Shown piece after piece: positions 25,603 to 58,285 of a stretch of DNA of 64,000 nucleotides. The DNA comes from Cytophagales bacterium (lineage in GTDB: Bacteria; Bacteroidota; Bacteroidia; Cytophagales; 172606-1). The notes beneath the pieces are model-generated. The model did no database searches and was not told where the DNA came from. It worked only from the letters and a program-made list of their open reading frames with translations. The DNA lies in assembly GCA_030448185.1 (NCBI GenBank), contig JAUJNL010000003.1:1-64000 (forward strand). Direction: 5' to 3'. The position numbers and the translations under genes were made by a program. Positions within the stretch are counted from its first letter, which is position 1. The number at the start of each line of letters is the position of its first letter.

Positions 25603-28600
25603 TTAGAGACCTAACGTGAGGCCAACCGTGAATGTACGGGCACGGGGATACGCACCAAAGTCAGTGCCATAGTGGCCCTCGCGAGTGAAAGAGCGCACAT
25701 CCGGATCTATACCGCTGTATTTGGTAAACAGCGCTAAATTATTGGCGGTGATAAATGCTCGGATGTTCTGGAACTTCAGGCGTTCTACTAGAGTCTGGGG
25801 TAATTCATAGCCTAGGGTTACATTGCTCAGACGCAGGTACGATCCATCTTCCAGAAAGCGGGTTGAGGTAAAGTTGTAGTTCGCGGTACCTCCAACACCT
25901 GAAACGGCTCTGGGTATATCCGTTATATCTCCCTGTTGCTTCCATCGGTTGCGAACGCTACTCAGGTAATTACGCCCCGGAGTGCTCATAGCGGTTAGGG
26001 CCTGACGGGTGGCATTGTAGACCTGGTTACCGTACGACCAGTTCATGAAAATGTCGAGGGATAAGCCTTTGTAAGCAAAGGTATTTGTAATTCCGCCTGT
26101 GTGAAGCGGCTGCGTACGCCCATAGGTTACCCGATCTTGAGGTTCAATAACCCCATTGCCATCCTGGTCTACATAACGCACATCTCCCCCCCCAAATAAA
26201 TGGCCGGTTGCACTCGAGGCTCTTAATCCGGTTGTGTTGTCTTCATCACGGGCATAAATACCATCCGCTACATAGCCATAAAGAACCCCTACCGGGTTAC
26301 CTGGCTTTAAAGCACTCTCTACACCTGTGCCAAAGACGCGGGTTTCTGTGAATACAAAAATCAGATCATCATCACTGCCGTAAAGCGATAATATTTTGTT
26401 ACGGTTAAAGGCCACATTCAGATTAGTCGTCCATTTGAGGGCACCCGCTAAATTACGGGTAGTCAGGTTAAACTCCAACCCTTTGTTTTGCATTTTCCCC
26501 AGATTAACCGTTACGGAACCTGTTCCTGCGGATTGGGGGCACGGCCTGGTCAATTAACAGGTCTTGCGTTTTTTTTTCAGATAGGCTTCGGCAGTGAAGA
26601 CAATGCGCTCCTCTAAAATGCCTACGTCAACACCGACATTGTATTGGGTAGTAGACTCCCATTGCAGGTTGTAATTAGGTAATTGCCCCGGCTGAATTCC
26701 TGGTAAGCCCGCATAATCATTGCCTGTATTATAGAGGCCACGTGCGGTATAATTACCCAACCCGCCTTGATTGCCTACTTGTCCGGCGCTTCCTCTTAGT
26801 TTTAGGAAGTTGATGAACGGAAGCCCTTTTAGAAATGATTCATCCCCTATATTCCAGGCTACCGAAGCCGACGGAAAAACCCCATACCGGTTGTTAAGGC
26901 CAAACCTGGATGAACCATCCCGGCGGACAGTACCCGTTAGAATGTATTTATCTTTATAACTGTACTGCATTCTTCCGATGAATGACTCTAATCCGTAAGC
27001 TTGCTGTTCTGAACTGACATTATCAATCTTTGCTGCTGCATTCAGGGTAGTTACTTTATCACTAGGGAACTGGCTAGCATTAGCAGAAGAATTATTATCG
27101 GTAAACTCCTGTTGCTCATACACTACTAGAGCTGTAATATCATGTACATCAGCAAATTTTTTGTGATACGTCAAGGTATTGGTATTGATCCATTGGCGAT
27201 CATCCGAGTTGGTAAACGTGCCTCTCGTCTCGCGGTCCTGATTGGACGTAGAGCGGTTGAATGTATTGTTGCGTGCGGAACGGTAGTCCAGACCCCAACT
27301 CGTGCGGAACGTTAACTCAGGAAAAATTTGTATTCGGCAAAGACGTTCCCAAAAATCCGGTTATTCCGGTTGTTTCTATCTACTTCATACAGTGCAGCTA
27401 ACGGGTTGGCTGTTGATCCACCAGTAATCCTCCACAAAATTGTACCGCCCTGAAGCGTTGTAGATAGGGGTGAATGGATTTTTCACTAAGGCACTTAGAT
27501 AGACTCCCGCATTGGTATTGCCATTTTCAGGAATACTTTGAGGCTTGGTATGAGCAATAGATAAATTACTGCCAAACTTTAATTTTTTTCGATACTTCCA
27601 CATCTAGATTGAGTCGGCCCGTTACGCGGTTAAATCCTGATTTTTCGATAATTCCTTCCTGACCAAAGTAGTTAATAGAAGTCAGGTAGCCGACTTTACC
27701 CTCCTTTCCGCTAACGGATAAATCAACCGTACGGATGGGCGCATTATTCCGTAAAATTTCATCTGTCCAGTTTACATTGACAGCACTATCCAATCTGAAA
27801 AAGAAAGGGTCAAGAGCCAGCCCAGCATTTGTATAAATTTCCGTCATTACCGGTAACAATTCCGGGGCTTCCAGTACCTCTAGTTTTTTAGCAATGTTCT
27901 GGATGCCATAGGTTGTATTTAAGGTAACTTTAGTGCGCCCCTTTCCGCGCTTTGTAGTGATGAGTACGACGCCATTTGCGGCCCGGGCTCCGTAGATAGC
28001 TATAGCTGATGCATCTTTCAGAATATCAATGCTTTCAATATCGTTGGGGTTGATATCAGCCAAATTGCCCAGAATCGGCACTTCATCGACTACGTACAGC
28101 GGATCGTTGCCAGCCCGCAACGAAGAAATTCCCCGGATTCTGATGGAAGCGCCTGCACCTGGGGCACCATTATTCTGAATTACCTGCACTCCAGGAGCAC
28201 GGCCTTGCAGCAAACTTCCCAGGTTGGCATTGGGAATATTTTGTATTTCAGCAGCCTTTACGGTAGAAATCGAACTGGAAAGGGTTTTACGTTGCCCAGT
28301 ACCGTATCCAATAACTACTACTTCACTCAACGCCTTAATGTCTGGCGCCAGAGTTATATTTAAGGTAGTCTGGTTTCCAACCGGCACTTCTTCGGGCGTA
28401 TAGCCGATAAAACTGAATACCAGGGTGGCATTTCCATCGGGTACGGTCAGTTTAAAAGTACCATCCGCATCGGTAGTGGTTCCGGTGGTGCTTCCTTTTA
28501 CGGTCACACTTACTCCGGGCAGCCCTTCGCCGGTATCGGCTGCTTTTACAACGCCAGTGACAGCAACTTCGGCTATATGCGCCAGTTTAATGGCATTACC

Positions 28601-29032
28601 CGAAATCAGCGACAGGGGGGTAATTTCGGTAAGAGGAGTCTCATCAGTTGATGAAGTCTGACGGCGGTCTATCCGGGTTACTTCTTTTTTTACTCTCTTT
28701 TTAATCGCGTAGTTACCCTGATTAAGCCGCTCAAACTGCAGATTTACCTGGTTTAACAGTGACTGCAGCAACTCTTCAGGGTTAGCCGGATAAGTGCCAG
28801 GCTCAAATACCTGCTTGCCTTCCAAAGCCTTGGTATTATAGACGAAAAAGATTCCGTACTTTTTTTCCAATCGTTTCAATACTTCAGTGAGGGGCTTTTG
28901 GGCCTCCTTCTGAATCACACTTTCGGGAGTACTATTCAGGGCAACTGGTGATAATTCCGGCTCCTGAGCAAATCCTCCGCTGCCCAACAGGCAAAAAGCA
29001 AGCAAAAAGGAGGCCTTTAAAGTAGTTTTCAT
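25603..29032 (-). CDS. susC-like: SusC/RagA TonB-linked outer membrane transporter with STN domain (frame-disrupted)
   Basis: Starting MKTTLKASFLLAFCLLGSGG (signal peptide), then a secretin/TonB short N-terminal (STN) domain at about 45-115 (EVLKRLEKKYGIFFVYN), a carboxypeptidase-regulatory domain at about 158-235 (GVSVTVKGSTTGTTTDADG), the SusC motif SEVVVIGYGTGQRK, the plug (LLQGRAPGVQVIQN, DILKDASAIAIYGARAANGV), and the barrel ending FTVGLTLGL. The STN domain is the part that signals to FecR. Frame changes occur near 27580, 27400, 27330 and 26555; joined length is about 1140 residues. It imports the PUL oligosaccharide using TonB energy. Its conserved motifs argue that the breaks are sequence errors. 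Confidence 0.88.
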
Positions 29033-32385: not shown

Positions 32386-33090
32386 ATGCTCGAAAGGTAT
32401 TCCTTTGCGTTGCCCAAAGGCAAAATTATCCGGCGATACGGGGTTAAAGTCCTACAAATGCCCGAGTTAAACTATAATATATCTCCGGGGAATCTCATTC
32501 CTGCAATCCGGGATGTGGCCTCTCATAGGTTGGAGCTGATCAGGTGGGGGATGGATTTGAAAAAGAATAAACTGGGCCGGGCTAACAGACCCGTTTCCGT
32601 AATAAATGCCTCCGTTATCAGTAACGCGGACAAACCGGCCTCCCTGCTACTTACCCAGCGGTGCCTGATTCCGGCCGATGCCTTTTATTGCTGGCGGCGC
32701 CTCTCCCGGAAAAGTTATGTTCCTTTTAGAATTTCCCTGAAGTGGAACCTGCCGTTTGCCTTTGCCGGCGTATGGCAGACCGAAGCCGATGAGTCAGGAA
32801 ACGAAACAATTACCTGCGCCCTGATTACGACTACTGCTAATACCCTGCTTGCCCCCCTCGCTGCAACCATGCCCGTAATTCTGCCACTGGAAGAAGAAAA
32901 AAACTGGCTGGCCCCGCAAGAAGGCCCTTTTGCAGTAAAATACCTGTTCTCCTCCTACCCTTCCGATCAAATGAAGCTGTTTCCAGTATCTTCAAAGATC
33001 CATGACCTGTCATTTAATTCACCCTTGCTCACCCAACCCGCCCAACCTGTAGACCAACACGGCAATTATGTACTGTTTGGAGAACAATAA
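32386..33090 (+). CDS. SRAP (YedK/HMCES) family protein with altered active site
   Basis: The SRAP fold is recognised from ERYSFALP, YNISPGNLIPAI, LELIRWGM, INASVIS, RCLIPADAFYCW, FAFAGVWQTE and TMPVILP. True SRAP enzymes start Met-Cys and use Cys2 to crosslink abasic sites in single-stranded DNA, helped by Glu in FYEW and His in HxRMPVI. Here the second residue is Leu (ATG CTC), FYEW is FYCW, and the His position reads LAATMPVIL. The gene therefore looks like a paralogue with no normal catalysis. The start at 32386 gives 234 residues and matches the family; the frame opens 16 codons earlier. Its 3' part is duplicated downstream. Confidence 0.75.
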   Translation: MLERYSFALPKGKIIRRYGVKVLQMPELNYNISPGNLIPAIRDVASHRLELIRWGMDLKKNKLGRANRPVSVINASVISNADKPASLLLTQRCLIPADAFYCWRRLSRKSYVPFRISLKWNLPFAFAGVWQTEADESGNETITCALITTTANTLLAPLAATMPVILPLEEEKNWLAPQEGPFAVKYLFSSYPSDQMKLFPVSSKIHDLSFNSPLLTQPAQPVDQHGNYVLFGEQ

Positions 33091-33552
33091 ACAAGTAGCC
33101 ATTGGAAAACTGCAACCATGCCCGGCTGGAAGAAGAAAAAAACCGAAGCCGATGAGTCAAATGGAAACGAAACAATTACCTGCGCCCTGATTGGAATCGA
33201 CTACTGCTAATACTCCCTGTTTCTTCTTGCCCCCCTCGCTGCAACCATGCCCGTAATTCTGCCAAAATAATATCGATGGAAGAAGAAGAATGGTTTTCTC
33301 AAAACTGGACTGGCATCGAGCCGATGCGCAAGAAGGCCCTTTTGCAGTAAAATACCGTGTTCTCCTCCTTTATACCGCCTCCGATCAAATGAAGCTGCCT
33401 TTCCAGTATCTTCAAAGATCGCGATGGGTCTTTTCTTGACCTGTCATTTAATTCACTTTGAGAATCCTTGCTCACCCAACCCGCCCCAACCTGTAGACCA
33501 ACACGGCAATTATGTACTGTTTGGAGAACAATAAACAAGTAGCCATTGGAAA
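33091..33552 (+). repeat. Interleaved duplicate of the SRAP gene 3' end
   Basis: From 33143 the sequence repeats 32780-33108 almost base for base but with many short extra pieces inserted, so that 329 bases become about 410. Substitutions are nearly absent. Matching blocks include CGAAACAATTACCTGCGCCC, GACCTGTCATTTAATTCAC and GACCAACACGGCAATTATG. A mosaic of the same region stands at 33103-33140. No intact frame remains. The pattern is unlike natural decay and points to a consensus or assembly artefact. Confidence 0.75.
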
Positions 33553-33600
33553 AATGGAATCAGGAGCATTTTCTCATAATCAATGTGCGAAACCGTTGAA

Positions 33601-34180: not shown

Positions 34181-34763
34181 ATGCAGATGAGCAAAGTAGT
34201 ATACCTGAACGATGAGGAACTTTCACCGCCCTTCGCAGCGGGAGCGAGCAGGCGTTGGGAGCTGTCTATAAAAATTATTTTCCGATGATCCTGCATTTTA
34301 TTACACAGAATAGCGGAACGGAACAGGAAGCGAAAGATGTTTATCAGGGAAGCAATGATCGTGCTCTACGAACATCTGAAAGACGGGGATTTTGCTCTTT
34401 CATGCAAAATAAAAACCTATATCTACTCGGTTTGCCGCCGGCTTTGGCTGAAAAAACTGGCTGAAAAAACAGAAAAGCCGGTTCGTCGGTAAAATAGAAG
34501 ACTTTGAAACATTCATTCCCTTTGCCAGAGACGAAGGGGAATCCGAAGAACGGGACGATCAGTTTAAAGCTATGCAGGAATCAATGGCTGATCTGGGCGA
34601 ACCCTGCCGTACTATATTGGAGGACTTCTTTATCCGGGGCTATAGTATGCAACAGATTACCGATAAAATGGGCTATACCAATGCAGACAATGCCAAAAAC
34701 CAGAAGTACAAGTGTCTGCTGAGACTGAAAAAGATTTTCTTTACCCGATATAAAGCCATTTAA
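34181..34763 (+). CDS. ECF sigma-70 factor paired with protease-type anti-sigma (frame-disrupted)
   Basis: Joined frames give about 193 residues: MQMSKVVYLNDEELS, then ALRSGSEQALGAVYKNYFPMI (region 2 start), EQEAKDVYQEAMIVLYEHL (region 2 core), IKTYIYSVCRRLWLKKL, and the region 4 helix-turn-helix LEDFFIRGYSMQQITDKMGYTNADNAKNQKYKCL. Frame changes lie near 34232 (one base missing after CACC), near 34349 (extra G in GGGAAG) and near 34465. The stop at 34761-34763 is 12 bases before the membrane protease gene, so both are one unit. By family it recruits RNA polymerase to a small regulon under control of its membrane partner. Confidence 0.8.
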
Positions 34764-57946: not shown

Positions 57947-58285
57947 ATGCCTCTCTTTATTCACCGGTATGGGTTACCAGTGCAGTCTGCTGTAGATCCA
58001 AACTGCCTCTCGGACGTTGAAATCGCCGATCTGAATAACGAAATCGCCGATCTGAATAACGAAATCGCCGATCTGAATAACGAAATCGCCGATCTGAACA
58101 TTGAATTCGCAGAATTCAATGTTCAGGTTGTAGAAAATGGTCTTTACACCAGCGGAACGGAGAAGCAGACCAGCACAGCAAATCTTTCATTGGGCGCTTT
58201 AAGCAGTCGTTTAGGAAACATAATTTCCGGGGAATCTCTTTTTACCCCTTTTGCTTTACCCTTAAAAAAGGTAGCTTTAGGTTAA
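57947..58285 (+). CDS. Hypothetical protein with EIADLNN heptad repeats
   Basis: 112 residues from ATG 57947. After a non-descript N-terminus the heptad E-I-A-D-L-N-N is repeated four times (last copy altered), giving hydrophobic Ile and Leu at a/d-like positions, a short coiled coil. The tail (TSTANLSLGALSSRLGNIISGESLF) has no known domain. The repeat is 21 bases and exact, in frame. It ends 10 bases before the next lipoprotein gene, so they could be co-transcribed. Whether it is translated is uncertain. Confidence 0.5.
   Translation: MPLFIHRYGLPVQSAVDPNCLSDVEIADLNNEIADLNNEIADLNNEIADLNIEFAEFNVQVVENGLYTSGTEKQTSTANLSLGALSSRLGNIISGESLFTPFALPLKKVALG
58019..58099 (+). repeat. 21-base tandem repeat, about four copies, next to a palindrome
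   Basis: The unit GAAATCGCCGATCTGAATAAC repeats exactly at 58019, 58040 and 58061, with a partial copy at 58082. It is followed by the perfect 15-base palindrome CTGAACATTGAATTC-GCA-GAATTCAATGTTCAG at 58094-58126. Confidence 0.9.

Follow-up and report, generated by a model that had tools for sequence, protein, structure and literature searches.

A SRAP gene of a Cytophagales bacterium and a conserved clade of very probably non-catalytic 'pseudo-SRAPs'

A SRAP gene that lacks the three catalytic residues of its family was analysed in the window, that is, the whole stretch of 64,000 nucleotides studied here (contig JAUJNL010000003.1, positions 1 to 64,000 of the forward strand; assembly GCA_030448185.1). 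By sequence comparison, the gene appears to belong to an old, functional Cytophagales clade that has lost the covalent abasic-site chemistry ('pseudo-SRAPs'), and we are highly confident that a conserved non-catalytic SRAP clade exists. The main functional reading, a SRAP that is tethered to the sliding clamp and acts non-covalently, is given a probability of about 0.45-0.5 as a whole; any mechanism beyond the loss of the crosslink is put forward as a hypothesis. The features of the gene are as follows:

32386..33090, + strand: non-catalytic SRAP gene, 234 aa, intact frame (Pfam PF02586; AlphaFold2 model)
32389..32394, + strand: codons 2-3, Leu2 Glu3, replacing Cys2 Gly3 (alignment)
32689..32691, + strand: codon 102, Cys (FYCW), replacing the catalytic Glu (YedK Glu105; alignment)
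32860..32862, + strand: codon 159, Ala (AATMPVI), replacing the catalytic His (YedK His160) of HxRMP (alignment)
33052..33078, + strand: C-terminal tail DQHGNYVLF, the last five residues of which (NYVLF) resemble a β-clamp-binding pentapeptide (alignment)

Experimental Section

Searches and sampling were carried out at three levels. A search of contigs with the single window protein as query returned zero relatives; with the family alignment 454 relatives were obtained, and the best 80 were used. At the level of the order, a family profile gave matches in 273 of the 390 genomes drawn. Sequences were taken from only part of these 273 genomes, the selection being guided by rank, copy number and family; the frequencies given below hold for this sample only. 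At the level of the phylum, matches were found in 216 of the 395 genomes drawn.

The alignment comprised 217 distinct SRAPs after identical proteins had been collapsed and two short matches (L103, L156) left out. Trees were built after removal of columns 2, 3, 102 and 159. The first tree was computed from 132 of the 217 rows, namely the rows with the tail pattern described below, the rows in which Glu and His are missing, and a selection of outgroups. Mixture-model trees were computed from 68 rows, a subset of the 132, and from 76 rows, consisting of 58 earlier rows and 18 of 21 new phylum loci; the three loci that were dropped did not start with M[CS][GD]R[YF], and the 76-row tree therefore favours such starts.

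Results

Reading frame, fold and active site

The reading frame opens with ATG CTC at 32386, closes with the stop codon at 33088-33090 and has zero internal stops. ATG 32386 is the likely start, since the six family homologues have their own start, M-[CY]-[DE]-R, aligned with it; a longer frame with a TTG start was considered and is unnecessary, as the starts of the homologues fit this ATG. The translated protein scored 122 bits against the Pfam SRAP family (PF02586; cut-off 27.1) over residues 1-206, which places it in the family. Its AlphaFold2 model (mean pLDDT 83.5, built from 27 sequences) was aligned with the BT_1218, YedK and HMCES structures with Z values of 23.9-26.7 and rmsd values of 2.2-2.9 (VIA-align), and the top structural matches of the model were 2f20, 6kbz, 6kcq, 8d2m and 5ko9, in keeping with a predicted SRAP fold. 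The clear SRAP fold proposed by an earlier, sequence-only reading is thus supported by profile and predicted model alike, and the translation confirmed Leu2, FYCW and AATMPVI as that reading had described them.

The equivalents of Cys2, Glu105 and His160 are all absent from the window protein. For the Asn of the INA motif the alignments disagree, with V72 at this place in one and N74 in another.

Window genome and irregularities of the assembly

The window genome amounts to 6.4 Mb in 207 contigs and is 75% complete. Directly behind the gene lies a damaged repeat of its 3' half:

33142..33553, + strand: second copy of 32779-33109 (SRAP 3' half), with two in-frame stops; probable assembly artefact

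Gap-friendly scoring aligns this copy with 330 matches and not a single mismatch, with 21 insertions that add up to 82 nt and with 1 deletion; ordinary scoring gives 329 matches, 2 mismatches and 19 gaps. Since natural decay would bring more substitutions, the copy is probably an uncorrected or mis-joined piece of the assembly. A further long copy of the SRAP 3' half was not found in the window genome. The neighbouring gene at 34187-34757 looks by eye like one for an ECF-type sigma factor; compared with two genomes of the same family (G001, G002), it is broken by a frameshift. Given this doubtful assembly quality, Leu2 and Cys102, taken alone, could include base errors.

Three observations elsewhere in the window are recorded in their own right. 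A 35-base sequence at 33566-33600 is found again, at 97% identity, on three further contigs of this assembly; a perfect 21-base tandem repeat of 3.8 copies occupies 58019-58098; and an open reading frame at 27566-29032, by eye a SusC/TonB-type receptor, comprises only 488 aa and is perhaps cut by a frameshift.

The family of the window genome

The window genome carries a separate canonical SRAP (L001; MCGRYS, FYEW, HDRMP). In its family (f1), the Rhodocytophaga/Xanthocytophaga group, seven of eight genomes have one canonical and one non-catalytic SRAP each, and the remaining genome (G007, 72% complete) has zero SRAPs; a non-catalytic SRAP in seven of eight genomes of one family is beyond chance. 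Among the best 80 of the 454 relatives, those with names were Cytophagales bacterium YX1bin7, Xanthocytophaga flavus, Rhodocytophaga aerolata and AVDCRST_MAG56, with 43-48% identity; these four are already within the seven family genomes (G001, G002, G003, G006) and add none to the count.

Across the seven family members, residue 2 is Cys in four, Tyr in two and Leu in one, and residue 3 is Asp in four and Glu in three. Residue 102 is Leu in four and Ile, Ala and Cys in one each; residue 159 is Ala, Gln or Ser in two each and Gly in one. Several pocket positions beyond these catalytic ones are also altered in this family. On this alignment, only the window sequence has Leu2 and FYCW, and the loss of Glu and His belongs to the whole group. 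A conserved subgroup, for which the sequence-only reading had asked, exists in so far as its active site is degenerate; Leu2 and FYCW are not common among the seven family members, and the 'new Cys' of FYCW, which had been singled out as notable, turned out to be particular to the window sequence.

A Cytophagales clade without Glu and His

In the 132-row tree, the proteins with the C-terminal tail form a lineage of 99 rows (SH-aLRT 100), which divides into a catalytic branch of 51 rows (support 99), the named members of which are mostly Cyclobacteriaceae, and a non-catalytic branch of 48 (support 93). The mixture-model trees supported the non-catalytic clade with 88/82 (68 rows) and 97/93 (76 rows). 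Long branches meet in the 132-row tree. Judged from these trees, support for a single origin of the clade is good but not decisive. The window protein falls within this tail-marked lineage, apart from the canonical SRAP of its own genome; a recent duplicate of that protein is thus ruled out by the trees, and the paralogue suggested by the sequence-only reading is not a recent one.

In the catalytic sister group, Cys2, Gly3 and Glu are present in 51 of 51 rows and His in 50. All three catalytic residues are in place in 156 of the 217 aligned SRAPs, 143 of which have Gly at residue 3. In the clade, Cys2 is kept by 4 of the 47 members in which residue 2 could be read (row L176 has no N-terminus), and 30 of the 47 have a bulky residue there (I, L, Y, Q or F). 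Residue 3 is Asp in 19, Glu in 14 and Asn in 6 members, others making up the rest, and is acidic in 33 of 48. Glu102 remains in a single member (L185); the position otherwise holds A (14), F (12), L (7), V (4), G (3), C (2) and others. His159 is found in none of the 48, its place being taken by T (26), S (13), Q (4), A (2) and others, so that 47 of 48 members lack both residues. Since these absences (Glu in 47/48, His in 48/48) are common to the whole clade, they are not due to assembly errors, and sequencing error as the sole cause is ruled out. One further protein without Glu and His, L160, lies outside the clade in a poor, partial alignment.

The clade comprises 7 members from the family of the window genome, 26 from family f19 together with Marinoscillum, and 15 from family f7, the genomes of which are small (1.0-1.6 Mb). 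Family f19 is inferred to be Cyclobacteriaceae-like from the named rows next to its own. Among 34 hand-picked genomes, the clade member is the only SRAP in 21, comprising 14 f19 genomes, 99-100% complete, and 7 f7 genomes, 61-93% complete. A single SRAP is present in each of 15 f7 genomes, which had been picked as profile matches, and in an unselected listing three of three f7 genomes carry a clade member. Viral contigs contributed 10 relatives, none of which combines the clade residues with the clade tail.

Genomic locus

Neighbouring genes were clustered by BLAST and named from the Pfam and NCBIfam matches of the neighbours of L050 and L252. In six catalytic Cyclobacteriaceae-type loci (L049-L052, L056, L059), the SRAP gene follows genes for HslV, PDH-E2 and an α/β hydrolase, the NCBIfam match of the last falling under its cut-off, and FabH is found within 5 kb (<=5 kb) downstream of it. 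Parts of this arrangement recur around non-catalytic genes. In f7 (G031, G013), PDH-E2 and FabH flank the gene and HslV lies farther out; in Marinoscillum, the gene comes behind HslV, PDH-E2 and the hydrolase; and in G025, G252 and G285, it comes behind the hydrolase. As the locus is common in part to six catalytic loci and six non-catalytic loci outside the family of the window genome, the two forms look like orthologues, and these six clade members look like orthologues that lost the chemistry.

In the family of the window genome, the gene has moved, its neighbours vary and the HslV/PDH-E2/FabH locus is not kept. The window genome (G000), G001 and G002 have downstream genes in common, and a PepSY_TM gene lies 126 bases upstream of the window SRAP, with a counterpart that adjoins the gene in G001 (60% identity). 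A partner gene conserved across this family was not found; the remaining family genomes have different neighbours. No mutasome proteins were found among the four window neighbours that were scanned.

C-terminal tail

The tail of the lineage follows the pattern [DN]QxG[NS]x[TS]LF, with I, V, M or F at the T/S position in a few proteins. It is present in all 47 clade members that were picked for missing Glu and His with the tail disregarded; its presence in 51 of 51 catalytic relatives is circular, these rows having been selected by the tail pattern. In the AlphaFold2 model of the window protein, the tail has low confidence (mean pLDDT 58 for residues 221-230 and 45 after).

The consensus for binding the β clamp is a QL[SD]LF-like motif located in a flexible part of the protein. 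Tail-lineage proteins have Asn at the place of the consensus Gln (NYTLF, NLTLF), and Gln occurs there in 0 of 99. In 59 of the 118 SRAPs that do not belong to the tail lineage, LF occurs within the last 6 residues, compared with a rate of 1.4% among internal 6-mers; 8 of the 118 have Q[LMI]xLF as their final residues (e.g., QLSLF, QMDLF), the textbook β-clamp motif. These LF-ending tails may point to a general docking of bacterial SRAPs on the sliding clamp. For comparison, 20 Y-family polymerases from 12 related genomes were inspected by eye: 14 carry a Q[LI]-type motif among their 60 C-terminal residues, including QLSFPF, QLPLPF (the window genome's own), QLTLKF, QLSLEF, GNYQIKLF, GNYQINLF, GNHQISLF and others. 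The other six, both f7 polymerases among them, have no such motif within that stretch, and the local clamp motif is therefore not fixed. From the LF-ending SRAP tails and the motif-bearing polymerases, the tail is plausibly read as a docking site, and on sequence grounds it is somewhat more likely than not to bind the DnaN clamp.

Constraint

For 8 of 13 close non-catalytic pairs, dN/dS values of 0.023-0.13 were obtained, three of these pairs overlapping in members and several dS values being close to saturation; the other five pairs yielded no ratio. Six catalytic pairs gave 0.009-0.076, and the four of them that belong to the tail lineage gave 0.009-0.031, below the non-catalytic values. Invariant in all 48 clade members are N31, P34, W54, G55, R92, P163, W174, Q224, G226, L230 and F231. 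The lone pseudogene that the sequence-only reading had named as its refutation is excluded by these ratios, by retention in seven of eight family genomes and by the other clade members.

Some residues linked to DNA binding are less well kept. Position 74 (the Arg/Lys of the NAR motif), which is R or K in 51 of 51 catalytic tail proteins, holds Lys in 2 of the 7 members of the window's family and is R or K in none of the 15 f7 members. Arg161 is missing from all 7 members of the window's family and remains in 2 of the 15 f7 members and in 21 of the other 26 members of the clade. DNA binding by the known mode may thus be weak in the window's family and in f7. On average, members of the window's family carry a net charge of +4.9 and f7 members one of +9.5; the other clade members average -4.3.

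Separate losses elsewhere in Bacteroidota

Six of the 21 phylum loci that were read (L282, L290, L294, L296, L299, L300), all from one genus (g207, family f43), have MSDR[FY], GFYKW and V[GD][DN][RK]MP, that is, Ser for Cys, Asp for Gly3, Lys for Glu and Gly or Asp for His. In the 76-row tree, these six group together (100/100) at a distance from the Cytophagales clade; on this placement, their loss arose separately. An acidic residue 3 recurs in both groups. The Lys in place of Glu could be a new nucleophile. A further protein, L020 (G038), lacks Cys2, Glu and His (VIQRYTI, FYVW, TKRMP), lies outside the clade and is the sole SRAP found in its genome.

Discussion

Probable loss of the covalent chemistry

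In the extracts of PMC9436759 that bear on mechanism, crosslinking by YedK was severely slowed in E105A and E105Q, E105Q showed zero exchange within 24 h, H160A and H160Q lowered the rate about 10-fold, and the first nucleophile is given as the N-terminal amine of residue 2. By analogy with these mutants, the loss of the crosslink is a strong inference: without Glu and His, opening of the ring, formation of the Schiff base and reversal of the crosslink would not be expected to proceed efficiently. Four members of the window's family keep Cys2, so slow residual chemistry is possible. By the rule for Met aminopeptidase, a bulky residue 2 should block removal of Met1; with such a residue, the window protein is expected to keep Met1.

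Proposed model and alternatives

In the proposed model, the SRAP tail would dock on the DnaN sliding clamp, the tethered protein would ride at replication forks, and there it would bind single-stranded or abasic DNA without forming a covalent bond, serving as a reversible shield, sensor or scaffold. It would work alongside the canonical SRAP in the window's family; in many f19 and f7 relatives, it is the only SRAP found.

A regulatory role, in which a dead partner binds or competes with the canonical SRAP, is suggested by the pairing of one canonical with one non-catalytic SRAP in all seven gene-bearing family genomes, and inactive partners that control active enzymes have been described in other families, as far as the extracts consulted go. 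The two SRAPs of the window genome come from different lineages, though, and regulation cannot be the general role, as a clade member is so often the only SRAP among the picked genomes; we consider it unlikely. Similarly unlikely is a new enzymatic role, in which a rebuilt active site with other pocket residues (Cys102 or a leftover Cys2) reacts with abasic or other aldehydes. The Cys2 kept in 4 of 47 members, the Cys at residue 102 in 2 of 48 and, in the separate bacteroidote group, the change of Glu to Lys in 6 of 6 rows (FYKW), which could form Schiff bases, speak for such a role; against it, residues 102 and 159 vary widely in the clade, unlike a new active site, and residue 2 is mostly bulky.

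Decay, with constraint relaxed, the fold kept by inertia and the window copy a pseudogene in the making, would account for dN/dS values above those of the catalytic tail-lineage pairs, for the long branches and for the damaged 3' copy beside the gene. It is judged very improbable, because zero stops were seen inside clade members among the matches listed, the gene is kept in all three small f7 genomes of the unselected listing, the tail residues are intact in 48 of 48 members, and the dN/dS values, at 0.13 or below, are low. The remaining alternative concerns history: the tail lineage may have lost the residues more than once, each time independently. This would fit the meeting of long branches in the quick tree and the separate losses elsewhere (the MSDRF/FYKW group, L020), but all three trees, built without the trait columns, recovered the clade with the supports given above, and multiple losses seem unlikely. 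Among these readings, the clamp-tethered, non-covalent SRAP is preferred.

Tentatively, this model may be extended to the phylum: Bacteroidota SRAPs may have dropped the crosslink at least twice, in the Cytophagales tail clade and in the MSDRF/FYKW group, may take the place of the crosslinker in many Cytophagales genomes, and might now protect damaged single-stranded DNA at the fork non-covalently while tethered to the clamp, a picture that we regard as possible but rather doubtful. If it is true, selection keeps the clamp docking of SRAP function and not the covalent bond.

Significance

A conserved group without the covalent chemistry, often the sole SRAP and present in genomes of 1.0-1.6 Mb, implies a non-covalent SRAP function. 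The family is defined in print by its Cys, which the relevant passages of PMC3765255 call absolutely conserved, and is explained by its covalent chemistry in those of PMC9436759. Among the matches listed, the open-licence literature held no report of an inactive SRAP clade and none of a link between bacterial SRAPs and the clamp. From the C-terminal LF tail comes a concrete hypothesis on the way in which bacterial SRAPs arrive at replication forks.

Comparison with known systems

With the SRAP domain of YedK and HMCES, the window protein has in common the whole fold and the fold-core residues N31, P34, W54, G55, R92, P163 and W174; it differs in the missing equivalents of Cys2, Glu105 and His160, and crosslinking by the known mechanism is not expected. 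The catalytic tail SRAPs of Cyclobacteriaceae (Algoriphagus, Aquiflexum, Mongoliibacter) are 31-34% identical to the window protein, end in a DQxGNYTLF tail and have a locus partly common with that of clade members outside the window's family, but they keep Cys2, Gly3 and Glu (51/51) and His (50/51). In eukaryotes, the counterpart of a clamp-docked SRAP would be human HMCES with its PCNA-interacting (PIP) motif; the bacterial tail differs in lying at the extreme C-terminus and in resembling a DnaN motif rather than a PIP box. ImuB and ImuA, non-catalytic paralogues that take part in the mutasome, are inactive DNA-damage proteins retained for other functions in the relevant passages of PMC3765255, and ImuB is predicted to work through the β clamp (PMC11791113). 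The likeness to the window protein lies in a catalytically inactive DNA-damage protein that is kept, whereas the folds are unrelated.
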